Below, in pieces: positions 3,990 through 10,215 of a stretch of 64,000 bases of DNA. The translations under genes were made by a program, and so were the position numbers. Source of the stretch: Candidatus Sulfopaludibacter sp. SbA3 (GTDB lineage Bacteria; Acidobacteriota; Terriglobia; Bryobacterales; Bryobacteraceae); contig CAMDCN010000011.1 in NCBI GenBank assembly GCA_945890485.1, positions 1 to 64,000 on the forward strand. The letters run 5' to 3'. The notes under the pieces are model-generated. The model did not search any database. It saw only the letters and a program-made list of their open reading frames with translations, and had not been told where the DNA came from. Numbering within the stretch: position 1 is the first letter of the stretch; each line of letters begins with the position of its first letter.

Positions 3990-5633
3990 CTACCGATAGT
4001 TCAGCGCCACCGGCGCCTGCCCTTCCACGCAGTGGTAGGTCACTCCCGTCGGCAGACCTTTGAACTCATCGACCCGCCCATTCGGCCATCGCACCACCAC
4101 CCGCTTCACCGCCGTCTGCAGCCCTACCCCAAACGTCGCCGCCAGCATCGACGACGACAAATAGCTCGACCCGCTCCGAATCCGCCGCATCTGCCACCCG
4201 CCCTCATCCTCCACCTGCACCACCGCCCCAATCGCATCCCGGTTCGACGTCCGCCCCTCCAGCCGGAACCGGATCGACCTGTGCCCGTTCCCCACATCGT
4301 TCCGGTAGAGATACGCCGGCCCGCCGTTCGTCGTCAACAGCACATCCAGGTCCCCATCCCGGTCAAAGTCGCCCAACGCCAACCCCCGCCCCACCTTCGG
4401 CTCCCGGAACCCGCCGCCCACCTCGCCGCTGATGTCGCGGAACTTCCCCTTTCCATCGTTCAAAAACAGATGCGGCGGCTGTGCATACGCCGGTCCTCGC
4501 GCCAAGTTCCGCACCGAGTCGTCGATATGCCCGTTCACAGCTAGCAGGTCCAAATGCCCATCCAGATCGGCGTCGAAGAACAGGCACCCAAATCCCAACG
4601 TCGTCCGTGACGCCGCCGCAATTCCCGTCTCCGCCGCCCGGTCGACAAACCCCGTTCCCGTCGATTCGTACAGCCCGATCATCTCGTTGTCGAAATTCGT
4701 TACAGCCAGCCCCTCTCGCCCCGTCCTCCGGAAGTCGCCCGCGTCGACACCCATTCCTGCCCGCGCCCGCCCATCTTCAGCAAACGCCACGCCCGCCCGC
4801 ACCGCCATCTCGCGAAACGTGCCGTCCCGGTTGTTCCGGTACAGCTTGTTCGGCTGCGTATCATTCGCTACAAACAGGTCCGGCCAGCCGTCTTGGTCGT
4901 AGTCGAGCATCGCCACGCCCAGCGATTTCGACGAGGCATCGAACAGCCCGCTCTTCGCCGTTACGTCCTCAAACGTTCCGTTCCCTTTATTCCGGAACAG
5001 CCAGCACGTCGTCCCCCGGTAAGCCTCTGGCGTGCAGTACGATTTCGCCTTCCCGTCCAAACTGCAGAAGACGTCCGACTCCGGCGACCACCGCACGTAG
5101 TTGCACACGAACAGATCCAGGTGCCCGTCCCGGTCATAGTCGAGCCACACCGCAGACGTTGAAAACCCTGTCCGGTTCCCCAACCCCGCCGCCGCCGTCA
5201 CGTCCACAAACGTCCCTCGCCCCGTGTTCCTCAGCAGCCGGTTCTGCCCCACCCCGGTCACATACAAATCCGGGAATCCGTCGTTGTTGAAGTCCGCCAC
5301 CGCCACGCCCAGGCCATAGAACGAGATATCCAACCCCGCTGCCTTCGTCACATCTGTAAAGGTCCCGTTCCGGTTGTTCTTGTACAACTGCAACGTCGCC
5401 CGCCGCTTCGGATGCCCCGGCCAATCCTGGCCGTTCACCAGCAGCACATCCAACCACCCGTCGTTGTCGTAGTCCAAAAACGCGCAACCCGGCCCCAGCG
5501 TCTCCGGCAGATAGCGCGAGCCAAACGCGCCTGTATGATGCGTAAAGTTCAGCCCCGCTGCCCGCGTCACATCCACCAGCTGCAGCCGCGGCCCCGGCGC
5601 CGCCAACGCGAACAGCAGCTCTCGCCGCGTCAT
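3990..5633 (-). CDS. CRTAC1-like protein: FG-GAP/VCBS repeats with ASPIC/UnbV C-terminal domain
   Basis: The 547-residue product has a short twin-arginine-like leader (MTRRELLFALAAPG) and probably acts outside the cytoplasm. Roughly residues 45-420 contain repeated calcium-binding motifs of the D-x-D-x-D-G-x-x-D-L type (for example DYDNDGWLDVLL, DFNNDGFPDLYV, DYDRDGHLDLFV, DFDRDGDLDVLL), expected to fold as a seven-bladed integrin-like propeller. Residues about 455-530 are the ASPIC/UnbV domain (NRDAIGAVV, RSGSSYLSSS, RWPNGRVDEF). Its ATG overlaps the stop of the response-regulator gene by four bases (ATGA), so it is the last gene of that operon. Molecular function is not known; members are common in Acidobacteriota and Planctomycetes and are usually taken to be surface or adhesion proteins. 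Confidence 0.9.
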   Translation of the reverse strand: MTRRELLFALAAPGPRLQLVDVTRAAGLNFTHHTGAFGSRYLPETLGPGCAFLDYDNDGWLDVLLVNGQDWPGHPKRRATLQLYKNNRNGTFTDVTKAAGLDISFYGLGVAVADFNNDGFPDLYVTGVGQNRLLRNTGRGTFVDVTAAAGLGNRTGFSTSAVWLDYDRDGHLDLFVCNYVRWSPESDVFCSLDGKAKSYCTPEAYRGTTCWLFRNKGNGTFEDVTAKSGLFDASSKSLGVAMLDYDQDGWPDLFVANDTQPNKLYRNNRDGTFREMAVRAGVAFAEDGRARAGMGVDAGDFRRTGREGLAVTNFDNEMIGLYESTGTGFVDRAAETGIAAASRTTLGFGCLFFDADLDGHLDLLAVNGHIDDSVRNLARGPAYAQPPHLFLNDGKGKFRDISGEVGGGFREPKVGRGLALGDFDRDGDLDVLLTTNGGPAYLYRNDVGNGHRSIRFRLEGRTSNRDAIGAVVQVEDEGGWQMRRIRSGSSYLSSSMLAATFGVGLQTAVKRVVVRWPNGRVDEFKGLPTGVTYHCVEGQAPVALNYR

Positions 5634-6250
5634 GGCAGCGTCACCAGCCCATGGCGGATCGCGTGCATCACCAGGTCCGCCGTGTTGTGTACCTCCAACG
5701 CGTCCATGATGTTCGCCCGATGCACCGCAATCGTGTTCGCGCTCAGCCCCAGAATCGCCGCAATCTCCTTGTTCGCGCGCCCTGCGGCAATGTGCTGCAG
5801 CACCTCCATCTCTCGCGTGCTCAGCGGCCGCTTGCCCACCGGCGCCGCCGCCTGCTGCAGCCGCGGATCAATCACGGTCTCCCCCGCCGCCACCTGCTTC
5901 ACCGCGTCCACTAGTTCCAAGTCCAGCGCATTTTTCAGCAGGTATCCGGCCACCCCCGCCTCCCGGCACAAGGTCACATAGCTCGGCTCGGAGTGCATAC
6001 TCAGCATCAGAATCTTCAGCTCGGGCCGAGCGGCCAGCAGCTTCCGCGCCGTCAATGCCCCGTTCTGCAGCGGCAGCGCATAGTCCAGCACCACGACGTC
6101 CGGCCTCACGCGCCGGGCCACCTCTTCGGCCTCTAACCCGTCGCTCGCCTCGCCCACCACTTCAACCTCCGCGTCGTCCTCCAGCAAACGCCGGAACCCC
6201 CTCCGCACCAGCGCATGGTCATCCACCAACAGCACCCGGATCTTAGCCAC
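5630..6250 (-). CDS. Response regulator, NarL/FixJ family (REC + LuxR HTH)
   Basis: A 206-residue regulator. The receiver domain begins MAKIRVLLVDDHALVRRGF, with acidic pocket D10/D11, phospho-acceptor D56 in VVVLDYALP and the conserved Lys in YLLKNAL. A LuxR-type helix-turn-helix occupies about 145-205 (LSTREMEVLQHIAAGRANKEIA). An open frame extends further upstream, but the receiver domain dictates the GTG start at 6250, which overlaps the kinase stop by eight bases. It is co-transcribed with and presumably phosphorylated by the kinase just upstream. Target promoters cannot be read from the sequence. Confidence 0.93.
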   Translation of the reverse strand: MAKIRVLLVDDHALVRRGFRRLLEDDAEVEVVGEASDGLEAEEVARRVRPDVVVLDYALPLQNGALTARKLLAARPELKILMLSMHSEPSYVTLCREAGVAGYLLKNALDLELVDAVKQVAAGETVIDPRLQQAAAPVGKRPLSTREMEVLQHIAAGRANKEIAAILGLSANTIAVHRANIMDALEVHNTADLVMHAIRHGLVTLP

Positions 6251-7523
6251 GCGGAACCTCCAATGTAATCGTAGTGCCCCCGGCCGTCTCCACGAGCAGC
6301 GTCCCGCCCAACAGCTCCGCCCGCTCGCGCATCCCCGCCAGCCCCACCCCCGGCGTCGCATCGGCCGCAATCCCCGGCCCCGCATCCGCCACCCGCAGCC
6401 GCAACGGTTCGCTGTGCAACTCCACCGCCACCTCGTTCACCCCCGCATGCCGAGCCACGTTGTTCAGAGCTTCCTGCAGAATCCGGAACACATGAATCGC
6501 CCGCCCCGCATCCAACACCGGAGCATTCGCCGGCCCCGTGTACCGCACCGCAATCCCCGTCTGCCGCTCAAACACCGGCAAATACCATTCCACCGCCGCC
6601 CCCAACCCCTGCTCTTCCAGGATCACCGGCTGCAGCGCCTGCGAAAGCGCCCGGACCTTTTCGAGTGTCTCCTGCACCACCACTTTCGTCTCCTGCAACT
6701 CTTGGGTAAACGCCGCTGGCGCCGACCGCCCCGCGCGCGAAAGCATTGCTCCGACCGCCGTCAGAATCTGCCCGAACTCATCGTGCAGATCCCGCGACAC
6801 CGTCCGCAGCGTGCTCTCCTGCGTCGCGATCAACTGCTGCGCCAACTCCCGCCGCTGGTTCGACAAACTCGCCAACCGTTCGAACAGAATCCGGTTCGAA
6901 CGAATCAACGCCAAACTCACGACCAAAACCAACACCAGCGAAAGCCCAAGAAATACATAGGCATTCCGCTCAATCTCCCCATAGATCCCCGCGATCTGCT
7001 CCGCCGCCCGCTGCTCCTCCGCGTTATTCTGCACGAGCAACCGCGCCGTCAGCGAGGTCAACGCCTGCAACTGCGGCTCCAATGTCTCCCGGATAAACGC
7101 CGTCACCGCCGCCGGCGGTCCCGTCTCCGCCAGCGCCTTCATCCTGTCGACCGCGGTCCAAAGCTGCGCGAACGATGCGGCCAGGTAAGCAGCCTGCTGC
7201 GGATCCCGCCGCCCGGCGGCCAGCGCCGCCTCCACGCGAATCGCATCGTCTAAATTCTCCCGGATCCGCCCCAACTGCGGACCCCACGCCGTCAGCGGAT
7301 ACCCATCGGTCTGGTCGAGCATATCTCGCAGCGCCAGCGCCAGCGAGTTCAAGTCGCTCTGAATCCGGATCAGTTGCAGCGCCGCCTTCCGGTTCTGGTC
7401 GACGATCTCCGTCTGCACTTCGCGCATCCGCCGCACGGAGTTCAGCGTATAGCCGGCGTAGGCCAGGATGATCGCCAGCGTCACCACTACGCCGGCCGCC
7501 AAGCGTGTAGTCGGTGACCTCAT
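6243..7523 (-). CDS. Sensor histidine kinase, HisKA_3 (NarX/DesK type)
   Basis: The 426-residue membrane kinase has transmembrane segments at about 11-28 and 189-207 flanking a periplasmic helical sensor region, followed by a signalling helix. The HisKA_3 dimerisation motif is SRDLHDEFGQ with phospho-accepting H247. The HATPase domain shows the N box (EALNNVARHA) and G box (DAGPGIAADA, GVGLAGMRERAELLGG). The ATG at 7523 forms an ATGA overlap with the transporter stop, so I prefer it to the GTG seven codons upstream. It partners the LuxR-type regulator that follows. Lying downstream of a thiol/selenol peroxidase, it may respond to redox or organic-acid stress, but that is inference. Confidence 0.9.
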   Translation of the reverse strand: MRSPTTRLAAGVVVTLAIILAYAGYTLNSVRRMREVQTEIVDQNRKAALQLIRIQSDLNSLALALRDMLDQTDGYPLTAWGPQLGRIRENLDDAIRVEAALAAGRRDPQQAAYLAASFAQLWTAVDRMKALAETGPPAAVTAFIRETLEPQLQALTSLTARLLVQNNAEEQRAAEQIAGIYGEIERNAYVFLGLSLVLVLVVSLALIRSNRILFERLASLSNQRRELAQQLIATQESTLRTVSRDLHDEFGQILTAVGAMLSRAGRSAPAAFTQELQETKVVVQETLEKVRALSQALQPVILEEQGLGAAVEWYLPVFERQTGIAVRYTGPANAPVLDAGRAIHVFRILQEALNNVARHAGVNEVAVELHSEPLRLRVADAGPGIAADATPGVGLAGMRERAELLGGTLLVETAGGTTITLEVPRG

Positions 7524-8725
7524 GTTTCGTAAGCGGGCATCCACAACATCAGCATGGCGGAAACGACGGTCGGAATGGCAAGCAGGCTCAGCACCAAAGT
7601 GTACGACGCCGTCGCATCAAACACCCGTCCGAGTAGCACCGGGCCCAACCCGCCCGCGATGGCGTAGAACGTCCACGTCAATCCGTACAGCGTCGAAAAG
7701 GAACCCAACCCGAAGTATCGAGAGAGCAGATACGGCGTGACGTCCGCCTCGCCGCCCAACCCCAGGCCAATCAGCAGTGCTGCCGCCAATCCCGCCGCGA
7801 AAGTATGCGCGTAGGCGAGCAACAGAATCCCCGCCGCCATCGCGAACAGCAGCAGGCACGAGATCAGCGGACCCCAGAATCGGTCCAACAGATGGCCTGT
7901 CAACAACCGCCCGCCCAGGCTCGCGCCCCCCAGCGCCGCCGCAATCCAGGCGGCCGTCCCCGCCTCTAGCCCGCGGTCCGTCAGCAGAGCGGCCAAGTGA
8001 GCAATCGCCCCGTTCGCCGCTATCGAGCTCAGGAAGAGTGTCGCCACCAGAATCCAGAAGGCGCGCGTCCGCAGCGCCGCCCCCGCCCCGCCCGCTCCCC
8101 CGGTCTGCCGACGCTCTGCCGAAGGATTCGCCCGCAGAAACCGCGCCGCCAGCGGCAGACTCACGGCCAGCGCCATGCCTCCTAAAACGAAGTAGGCCGC
8201 CCGCCATCCATAAGTCTCAATCAACCCCTGCGCCGTCGGCGGCAGCACGATCGAACCCAATCCCGCCCCGGCCATGACCAGCGCTAAAGCAAGTCCTCGC
8301 CGCTCGGTAAACCACGACGAGACAGCGCCCGAAAACCCCATCTGCGTGGTGCCATTCCCCACTACGCCGATCACGAAGAAAATCGCGTACAGGTGCCAAA
8401 TCTGCGGAGTCAGGAAACTCAACGAGGCGAACGCCAGCCCGAACACGGCAAGGCAAGGAAGCACCACCCGTCGCGGCTCTCCCCGGTCGAGCAACCGACC
8501 GAGAAACGGTGAACTCGCCGCCACGGTCATCGCCGCGATCGCGAACGCCCGCGACACCTCCTCGCGGCCCCAGCCGAACTCCGCGGTGAGCGGCTTCAAA
8601 AACACGCTGAACGTAAACACGAGCAACGACCCGAAGCTCATCATCACGCCGCAGTGCGCGGTCAGCACGACGCGCCAGCCCGCGTACCCCAGCGACGATT
8701 CCGGACTACTTACGAACGTAGCCAT
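7520..8725 (-). CDS. MFS transporter, oxalate/formate- or monocarboxylate-antiporter-like
   Basis: The 401-residue product is almost entirely hydrophobic with about 12 predicted membrane helices. It has the MFS signature between TM2 and TM3 (GRLLDRGEPRRVV) and the TM4-TM5 region GVVGNGTTQMGFSGAVSSWF followed by RRGLALALVMAGAGLG, typical of the OFA / monocarboxylate porter branch. Substrate is unknown; a small carboxylate is likely from family knowledge. Its ATG lies 20 bp inside the end of the upstream peroxidase gene, and its stop overlaps the kinase start, placing it in a five-gene operon. Confidence 0.88.
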   Translation of the reverse strand: MATFVSSPESSLGYAGWRVVLTAHCGVMMSFGSLLVFTFSVFLKPLTAEFGWGREEVSRAFAIAAMTVAASSPFLGRLLDRGEPRRVVLPCLAVFGLAFASLSFLTPQIWHLYAIFFVIGVVGNGTTQMGFSGAVSSWFTERRGLALALVMAGAGLGSIVLPPTAQGLIETYGWRAAYFVLGGMALAVSLPLAARFLRANPSAERRQTGGAGGAGAALRTRAFWILVATLFLSSIAANGAIAHLAALLTDRGLEAGTAAWIAAALGGASLGGRLLTGHLLDRFWGPLISCLLLFAMAAGILLLAYAHTFAAGLAAALLIGLGLGGEADVTPYLLSRYFGLGSFSTLYGLTWTFYAIAGGLGPVLLGRVFDATASYTLVLSLLAIPTVVSAMLMLWMPAYET

Positions 8726-9302
8726 TCAACGCCGTCCGCTTCCCGCCCGCGCGATGGGCCTCTTCGGAGAGTGCGTGGACGCCGGAGGCATCAATCCACC
8801 GGTTATAGAAGTTGAAGAGGGAGCAGACGGTAATCGCATAGTAGATCTGTTCATCGGTCCATCCCGCCGCGTGCAGCGGGTCCATATCGGCCGCGGTGAT
8901 CTCCGGCGACCGGCTATTCACTTTGTCCACAAATCGAAACAGCGTCTTCTCGGCCTCGGTCAGGGAGGAGGTTTCAAAGTCCGCGATGACTGCTTGCACG
9001 GCCTCTTCGCTCCCCAGGAGTGCTGCCGCGACCGCGGCATGCGACTTCAGTCAAAACGGGCAATGGTTCCGCGCCGAAGTAAACGCCGCGATCAGCTCCC
9101 GCAGCCCTGGGGAGAGTGGTGCTTCGCCATGCAGCATCTCATGGGTGAACCTCGCCAAGTGTTCCGTGGCCTGCGGCTTGTAGGCGAACAGGTGCCAAAT
9201 CTGCGGATATTCCCCGCCGCCCTTGGCCATCGCAGCAATCGCATGGGCGTAGGGGCCAGGCTCTGGATTCGCCTCCACATCGGGAAGAAACATCGGTTCC
9301 AT
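8706..9302 (-). CDS. AhpD/carboxymuconolactone-decarboxylase-like peroxidase, predicted selenoprotein (Sec84)
   Basis: Two apparently separate ORFs (9302-9051 and the frame ending at 8706) lie in the same frame and are split only by a TGA at 9053-9051. Read through, they give one 198-residue AhpD-like protein of normal length for the peroxidase-related CMD family. The N half ends with NHCPF, the UGA follows, then LKSHAAVAAALL, so the redox motif becomes C81-P-F-U84-x3-H88, where the family has CxxCxxxH. The C half (TADMDPLHAAGWTDEQIYY, ITVCSLFNFYNRW) matches the family exactly. A hairpin with SECIS geometry follows the UGA. Such enzymes reduce hydroperoxides using a thiol/selenol pair. It is the first gene of the operon with the MFS transporter and two-component system. 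A sequencing error turning TGC/TGT into TGA is the main alternative. Confidence 0.8.
9024..9053 (-). promoter_or_regulatory. Bacterial SECIS-like element next to the in-frame UGA
   Basis: Immediately after the UGA (9053-9051) come 11 bases, then a perfect 6-bp stem TGCCGC/GCGGCA (9039-9034 with 9029-9024) closing the loop GGTC (9033-9030). The loop starts with G and contains GGU, and the loop begins 17 nt after the UGA, within the range accepted for bacterial SECIS elements. The 11-nt spacing and a GGUC-containing apical loop resemble the Escherichia coli fdhF element as I recall it. SelB would bind this hairpin to insert selenocysteine. The element also codes for HAAVAAA. Confidence 0.7.
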
Positions 9303-9392
9303 AGTGGAAAGAGGCTATTCTTCCGCTTTGTTGGCGACAATAGTGGAAAAGGATTAGCGGGGCAGGGAAGTTACAATGCGGATAGGGAATTG

Positions 9393-9752
9393 ATGTCCGC
9401 TCCAGCCCAGCTTCGAGGACACGCGCGAATTGACGCGCGCAGTTTAGCGATGCATCGCGCGATCGCCGAGAAGCTCCGCGCTGCGCCGGAACTGCTGGCG
9501 ATTGCGCACGACAACATCCGCCGTTGGTCCGCGACCGCGGGCCGCTCCCAGCCATACTTGGACGCGTGGGAACAACTCTTGGCCAAACCGCTCGAAGAAT
9601 TGTTGGAACTGATGGTGCAGGACACCGAGCCGATGCGAGCGATGCGGCAGGCGGCCCCATTCGCCGGAGTCTTAACCCCGAAGGAGCGCTGGGCTATTTA
9701 TGACGCGTTTGCAACTGGAGCATGTGATCCGGGCAGCGGGAACGATCGCTGA
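9393..9752 (+). CDS. Hypothetical protein, probable antitoxin partner of the DUF6036 nucleotidyltransferase
   Basis: A 119-residue soluble protein starting at ATG 9393, with a helical sequence containing ARIDARSLAMHRAIAEKLR, NIRRWSATAGRSQPYLDAWE and PFAGVLTPKERWAIYDAF. I recall similar small proteins encoded directly upstream of DUF6036 nucleotidyltransferases; I do not know a named Pfam family for it. It overlaps the following gene by 53 bp, which indicates translational coupling. The 90 bp before it are shared with the divergent selenoprotein operon. The toxin-antitoxin role is inferred from gene order only. Confidence 0.7.
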   Translation: MSAPAQLRGHARIDARSLAMHRAIAEKLRAAPELLAIAHDNIRRWSATAGRSQPYLDAWEQLLAKPLEELLELMVQDTEPMRAMRQAAPFAGVLTPKERWAIYDAFATGACDPGSGNDR

Positions 9753-10215
9753 TGACGATGACATCGTCGTGATCGGCAGCCAGGCGATCCTGGGACAGTT
9801 CCCTCACGCCCCCGAGGAGTTCCTTGTCTCTCAGGGGGCTGACGTCTATCTGCGAAACTTACAGGAACGCTCCGATCTGATTGACGGCACGATTGGAGAG
9901 GCCTCCCCCTTTGAACTTGCCTACGGCTACTGCGCCCATGGCGTCGGGCCGGAGACCGCCATCCTTCCGGCTGGTTGGCAGTCGCGGCTAATTCCTATAT
10001 CCGGTCCGAATACCCGATCCATTCGCGGTTGGTGTCTCGAAGTACACGATCTCGCCTTAGCCAAGCTCGTCGCGGGCCGCGAGAAGGACCTCGACTATGT
10101 GGCGGCACTATGACGCCACGGAATGGTTCAAGAAGAAATGTCGAGGGAACGATTGGCGCTCACCGAGCTCGATCCCGGCGTCCGCGCACTGATCTCCGCT
10201 CGCCTGACGAAATAG
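9700..10215 (+). pseudogene. DUF6036/AbiEii-like nucleotidyltransferase with in-frame TGA
   Basis: The frame starts at ATG 9700 with the nucleotidyltransferase-fold pattern DDDDIVVIGSQAILGQFP followed by the acidic strand QGADVYLRN. It stops at TGA 10111-10113 after EKDLDYVAAL (137 residues). The same frame continues without shift (RHGMVQEEMSRERLAL...) to TAG at 10213, giving the family's usual C-terminus. The stopped position normally holds Arg in ALLRHG-type motifs, so a CGA-to-TGA nonsense change is the simplest reading. The shortened protein retains the catalytic core and might still be active. No SECIS-like requirement (Cys equivalent) applies here. Confidence 0.7.

Follow-up and report, generated by a model that had tools for sequence, protein, structure and literature searches.

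Selenoproteins of the AhpD-like type with a CxxU motif were described in 2005 (PMC1088965) and in 2008 (PMC2398784), and an "AhpD-like protein, TIGR01926, CxxU" is listed in PMC13188914; as far as the accessible parts of these papers go, the original prediction was right that such proteins had already been reported. Passages available from two further papers give counts of three selenoprotein families for Acidobacteria (PMC1794560) and of three known selenoprotein genes for Occallatibacter riparius (PMC12013277). In the literature, judged mostly by titles and the openings of abstracts, we found no description of an AhpD-like selenoprotein family in Acidobacteriota. For AhpD itself, the part of PMC3141380 accessible to us gives a relay of Glu118, Cys130, His132, Cys133, and His137, and reports Phe at the relay His/Tyr position for 2GMY.

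The window (the whole stretch of 64,000 nucleotides that was analysed) carries an AhpD/CMD-like selenoprotein gene at 8706..9302 on the minus strand, identified by translation and by TIGR01926 and PF02627; it starts with ATG at 9302 and encodes 198 amino acids followed by a stop codon. When the gene was translated from 9302 to 8706 with TGA kept as a residue, a single in-frame UGA was found at codon 84 (9051..9053, minus strand), in the context RNHC81PFU84LKSH88. This confirms the prediction of a full-length protein in which UGA takes the place of the second Cys of CxxC (C81-P-F-U84-x3-H88). The coordinates 8706-9302 predicted for it were exact, while the strand had been left out: the protein is encoded on the minus strand, and the plus strand of the same interval encodes a different protein. 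An open reading frame listing with translation table 11 cuts the gene into two pieces, 9302-9051 (83 aa) and 8999-8706 (97 aa, GTG start), which are all that it gives in this frame, yet the TGA form is present in 67 of the 121 genomes sampled from the family. Since the second piece begins beyond codons 85-101, which include the conserved His88, it is implausible as a separate gene. An antisense open frame of 492 aa (8274-9752, plus strand), which we take to be spurious, overlies the selenoprotein gene, and an automatic annotator could call it in place of that gene.

TGA was found at codon 84 in all of 81 related loci (80 retained from 99 relatives, and the Gemmatirosa plasmid locus L028), with no other stop within the match. 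In the same 81 loci, the codon of Cys81, the proposed resolving Cys (9060..9062, minus strand), is always TGC or TGT, and that of His88, the proposed proton-relay histidine (9039..9041, minus strand), is always CAC or CAT. Because one of the six search patterns held a Cys codon, the locus search was not biased towards TGA. Among 108 deduplicated orthologues of at least 43% identity there were 98 with TGA, eight with TGC, one with TGT, and one with TCC, proportions that are not an unbiased sample because Cys copies were added to the set on purpose. Homologues with Cys at this site, which had been expected, thus make up nine of the ten non-TGA orthologues; the remaining one has Ser, and Trp is found in none. 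In comparison with ten relatives of at least 75% identity, and where computable, dN/dS was 0.02-0.11 upstream of the UGA, 0.00-0.28 for codons 85-101 (few changes), and 0.04-0.10 for codons 102-197, indicating that purifying selection acts on both sides of the UGA.

These results bear on the possibility that the TGA is a nonsense mutation in a decayed gene or a base-call error of a Cys codon. TGA is one base from TGC and TGT, and the two open fragments do resemble a broken gene. The identical TGA, however, recurs in 81/81 loci from many separate assemblies and is therefore not a sequencing error; the matches contain no other stop, selection appears purifying beyond the UGA, and the hairpin described below is conserved. 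We attach practically no weight to decay or error, and the earlier statement that this is not a decayed gene is borne out by the recurrence of TGA and by the selection on both flanks. Among viral contigs, 90 pattern matches were obtained, none of them related to the selenoprotein gene.

A candidate SECIS apical hairpin was found at 9025..9038 on the minus strand from folding, covariation, and synonymous recoding; it has a 5-bp stem (GCCGC/GCGGC) and the loop GGUC, in which a closing pair (9033/9030) stands around GU. With the U of UGA numbered 0, positions 15-19 of the stem pair with 24-28, the loop occupies 20-23, and the spacing from the UGA to the apical loop is 17 nt. In the accessible part of PMC13188914, the bacterial SECIS model has an apical loop of 3-9 nt with G in its first two positions, mostly of the form N1-G-[G/U]-N2 with N1 and N2 paired, a stem of 4-16 bp, a distance of 16-37 nt from the UGA to the apical loop, and a minimum free energy (MFE) of at most -7.5 kcal/mol; the present hairpin lies within this model in loop and stem size, loop Gs, spacing, and MFE. 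The loop of the 98 TGA orthologues is GGUC in 55, AGUU in 33, and another sequence in 10, and the G at position 21, the second base of the loop, is invariant (98/98). The SECIS of E. coli fdhF likewise carries GGUC in its loop. Of five TGA copies from outside the host's family, three keep GGUC or AGUU, and L166 and L168 differ.

The loop-closing pair 20-23 is G-C in 55 and A-U in 36 TGA orthologues (together 91/98), both bases being third codon positions, and at least 15 switches between G-C and A-U are needed on a quick protein tree. No other column pair in the segment reaches its mutual information (MI) of 0.893, the runner-up (0.53) being two bases of one codon; among adjacent wobble pairs across the gene (n=180), the next best value is 0.234. 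As a control, Ala-Val codon pairs of neighbouring open reading frames, which were picked automatically and may include wrong frames, gave an MI of 0.03 (n=1167). All five stem pairs can form in 94 of the 98 TGA orthologues, against a mean of 42.7 and a maximum of 53 in 200 synonymous recodings, and stem and loop pair together in 89, against a mean of 15.1 and a maximum of 26. The full stem is present in the minimum-energy fold of 90/98 TGA orthologues (missing in 8/98) against 1/10 non-TGA orthologues. Since the MFE of the window's own sequence, -10.8 kcal/mol for 30 nt and -18.7 kcal/mol for 46 nt, is not clearly better than that of shuffled sequences (z -0.91 and -0.39), the case for the SECIS rests on covariation. 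An Rfam scan of 8000-10000 gave no match. The repeated G-C/A-U switches of the loop-closing wobble pair support, at the sequence level, the N1-G-U-N2 loop with paired ends that published SECIS models contain.

The sel genes, which the original prediction proposed to search for, were all found in the host genome (7.13 Mb in 35 contigs, 97.4% complete): tRNA-Sec with 70.6 bits, called tRNA-SeC(tca) by ARAGORN, and SelB, SelA, and SelD with 378.8, 455.9, and 354.9 bits, respectively. The host SelD (L109:1531, G000 contig C9) is itself a selenoprotein, with an in-frame TGA in AAG-U-ASKLSPK, and the RNA downstream of this UGA folds into a hairpin in which seven base pairs close a GGU loop (-21 kcal/mol, z -1.75).

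Of the family's 121 genomes, 75 match the selenoprotein at E 1e-20 or better, 67 of these with at least one TGA orthologue and eight with non-TGA matches only. SelB was found at E 1e-60 in 103 of the 121. Eight of the 18 SelB-less genomes keep SelA or a tRNA-Sec of >60 bits (G003, G006, G012, G018, G040, G067, G103, and G120), and the other 10, among which G016 is just 62% complete, have neither; the tRNA-Sec threshold was set after the data had been seen, matches of 45-50 bits arising in genomes without SelA and SelB, and of the several hundred or more candidates in each genome, 114 were scored. Since G062, with SelA and SelB, shows no tRNA-Sec above 49.1 bits, an absent tRNA-Sec alone proves little. 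TGA copies occur in 67 of 111 genomes with any machinery but in none of the 10 that lack it (Fisher p=1.9e-4, with counts made by hand and a test that ignores the relatedness of the genomes). At the site, the machinery-less genomes G119 and G104 carry Cys (CAFC) and Ser (CEFS), respectively. The family therefore offers a natural experiment, in which genomes without sel machinery hold no TGA copy and two of them hold Cys or Ser instead. In a phylum-wide draw of 247 genomes, eight had a match at E 1e-40, including the host; of the other seven, five carry TGA, all with SelA and SelB, and two carry Cys, G336 without both proteins and G206 with both. The Cys form is found despite the machinery, and with no TGA orthologue, in G036, G039, G055, G109, and G206, so the link is one-way: TGA needs the machinery, whereas the machinery can be present here without TGA.

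We also considered that the UGA might be translated as a residue other than Sec, such as Trp through near-cognate decoding, or that the gene works as two peptides. The reading as Sec is deduced from sequence. The ten deduplicated non-TGA orthologues, however, have Cys or Ser and never Trp, the TGA copy is absent from the ten genomes without Sec machinery, and the loop covaries in the manner of a SelB-type loop; two peptides would leave codons 85-101 with His88 upstream of the first start of the second fragment. Such readings seem to us highly improbable, and UGA84 is almost certainly read as selenocysteine. As the signals and the machinery genes suggest, SelB with Sec-tRNA(UCA) would bind the hairpin 3' of the UGA and insert Sec at position 84.

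On a quick tree of 121 rows, the distribution of Sec and non-Sec requires at least six changes, four of them forced by starred branches. One change lies in the 33%-identical paralogue L152 (G094 C37:19021-19518), which has CFFU and also bears a GGUC at an equal spacing from the UGA; this is apparently an independent Cys-to-Sec origin. The Cys copy of G119 is nested in a Sec clade (support 83 and 98, on a long branch), as expected for a change from Sec to Cys after loss of the machinery. In L143 of G104, a genome where neither SelA nor SelB was matched, TCC encodes Ser at the active site (CEFS), and Sec may have been replaced there by a non-redox residue. The similar copies L147 and L148 of G039, where SelA and SelB are present, have TPFC, a form that has lost the first Cys but retains the second. 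AhpD-like CxxC paralogues of about 31-35% identity (L145, L146, L149, L150, and L153) are located near a Sec or Cys copy. Copies were also found in Gemmatimonadota (L028, L090, and L096), one of them on a 1.04 Mb plasmid of Gemmatirosa kalamazoonensis; they are nested among the acidobacterial copies in the tree and possibly derive from horizontal transfer.

With C substituted for Sec, the protein scores 98.1 bits against TIGR01926 ("peroxidase-related enzyme"; curated cut-off 81.8), in a match that spans the UGA (residues 25-172), and 42.5 bits against PF02627 (CMD; cut-off 23). Three PF02627 matches above the cut-off are present in the host genome, and the selenoprotein gene is the only one containing a stop. 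The closest solved structures by sequence are 2oyo, 6k40, 2pfx, 3c1l, and 2prr. An AlphaFold2 model built with 41 alignment rows (mean pLDDT 96.2, pTM 0.92) has the same five as its top fold matches (E 2.2e-9 to 2.5e-8), with PA0269 (E 1.4e-4) and the debrominase Bmp8 (best E 9.5e-4) among further matches; the match to Sestrin2 (E 0.075) is not significant. By spacing, the positions equivalent to the AhpD relay are E69, C81, F83, U84, and H88. E69, C81, U84, and H88 are in place, and Phe83 stands where AhpD has His/Tyr. E69, F83, and H88 are present in 98/98 TGA and 10/10 non-TGA orthologues, and C81 in 98/98 and 8/10.

By analogy with AhpD, the selenolate of Sec84, with His88 and Glu69 as its activators, would attack and reduce a peroxide or another electrophile, and Cys81 would resolve it to a selenenylsulfide, to be reduced again by a thiol donor. 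The hydroperoxidase role originally proposed would be carried over from the family, and TIGR01926, the predicted fold, and the relay residues E69, C81, U84, and H88 are consistent with it. On this basis we somewhat favour a peroxidase-type function for the Sec84 AhpD-like protein. The explanation as a whole, an AhpD-like selenoprotein (TIGR01926, CMD fold) with Sec84 inserted via SECIS and SelB and reducing peroxides or electrophiles, appears very likely.

The genes downstream on the minus strand give a further view of function. The selenoprotein stop is overlapped by 20 nt by the start of an MFS transporter gene (7520..8725, minus strand; lactate/monocarboxylate, oxalate-formate antiporter type), whose product has 141.8 bits for PF07690 and is nearest to the L-lactate transporter model SfMCT (184 bits, cut-off 320) and to oxalate/formate antiporters, though it reaches no NCBIfam cut-off. 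Its end is overlapped by 25 nt by a sensor histidine kinase gene (6243..7544, minus strand; HATPase_c and HisKA_3, UhpB/MctS-like below cut-offs), which is followed, again with an overlap, by a LuxR-type response regulator gene (5630..6250, minus strand, probable GTG start at 6250; Response_reg and GerE, MctR-like with 162.7 bits, cut-off 300). By tblastn, 39 of the 108 orthologous loci, the window included, have a related and similarly oriented MFS gene immediately downstream, at a spacing of -41 to +35 nt when the match is extended to residue 1 of the MFS protein in the window; 103 of the 108 loci hold at least 900 nt downstream. The MFS neighbour is also found beside some Cys copies (L146, L150, and L160). 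In a rough clustering, the histidine kinase and the response regulator each group with neighbours in seven loci, the window included. We infer that the selenoprotein gene is probably co-transcribed with the MFS gene and the two-component system. Scanning for promoter-like and terminator-like sites gave 0 and 4, respectively, where shuffled sequences gave 0.5 and 4.4. AhpC, whose gene ahpC shares an operon with that of AhpD in M. tuberculosis, was not found among the six neighbouring proteins scanned. In the surroundings there are also an FG-GAP/UnbV_ASPIC repeat protein gene (3990-5633, minus strand) and a DUF6036 nucleotidyltransferase-like gene (9700-10113, plus strand), and 33 neighbours in 32 loci form a cluster that resembles, from the sequences by eye, Oar/TonB-type outer-membrane proteins. 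To our knowledge, the role of AhpD-like selenoproteins is not established, and the MFS neighbour is a concrete handle on it.

This neighbourhood raises the question of whether the Sec-containing protein is other than a peroxidase, reducing another electrophile, as in Bmp8-like dehalogenation, or serving as a redox sensor or adaptor, on a compound moved by the MFS protein. Bmp8 debrominase works by reductive dehalogenation, and the fold match to it, together with the overlap of an organic-acid-type MFS gene conserved in 39/108 loci and the lack of AhpC among the scanned neighbours in the window, fits this possibility. The nearest relatives in sequence and fold (2oyo, 6k40, 3c1l, 2pfx, and 2prr), however, are named peroxidase-related, although several are titled "uncharacterized", and we regard a non-peroxidase function as rather unlikely. 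Still more speculative, and in our judgement improbable, is an undescribed Sec-dependent unit coupled to transport and made up of the Sec-AhpD-like protein, the overlapping monocarboxylate-type MFS protein, and the MctSR-like two-component system. The target of Sec84 would then be an organic acid, a peroxide, or a halogenated acid that is imported or exported, and not hydroperoxides in general.

Comparison with described systems places the protein as follows. With the COG2128/TIGR01926 CxxU proteins of the Sargasso Sea and GOS sets, as presented in the accessible parts of PMC1088965 and PMC2398784, it shares the CMD/AhpD family, Sec at the second Cys, a downstream SECIS, and widespread Cys homologues. 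Those sets are largely marine metagenomes, whereas here one family, with nearest named relatives in Acidobacteriota, is presented with its SECIS, its operon, and its Sec/Cys/Ser swaps. The CMD domain-containing selenoprotein, or AhpD-like 2 (PF02627, CxxU), has the Pfam domain and the motif in common with it; PF02627 is a broader domain, and the window's protein is also above the narrower TIGR01926 cut-off. The AhpD_rel_CFYUT (NF041238) and GSU3128 (NF041047) (seleno)proteins are other AhpD-related CxxU families, and membership in them was ruled out by scores of 39.1 and 18.3 bits against cut-offs of 175 and 110. The relay of mycobacterial AhpD and of P. aeruginosa PA0269, so far as it is given in the accessible part of PMC3141380, aligns by spacing as E69, C81, U84, and H88; unlike in mycobacterial AhpD, Sec replaces Cys133 and Phe83 is at the place of His132/Tyr50, and the fold match to 1gu9 is weak (E 0.55). 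The minimal SECIS of Epsilonproteobacteria, in the part of PMC4607533 accessible, is likewise a 5-bp hairpin a short way past the UGA, with an invariant G in its loop and covariance support, whereas here an added loop-closing pair covaries within one gene family. The protein exceeds the TIGR01926 cut-off, and that family has an existing entry as a CxxU selenoprotein; the protein is thus one more member of a type on record since 2005. The result is solid, but unsurprising to a specialist; less expected are the conserved MFS overlap, the apparently independent Sec origin in a paralogue, and the commonness of the TGA form (67/121 genomes).
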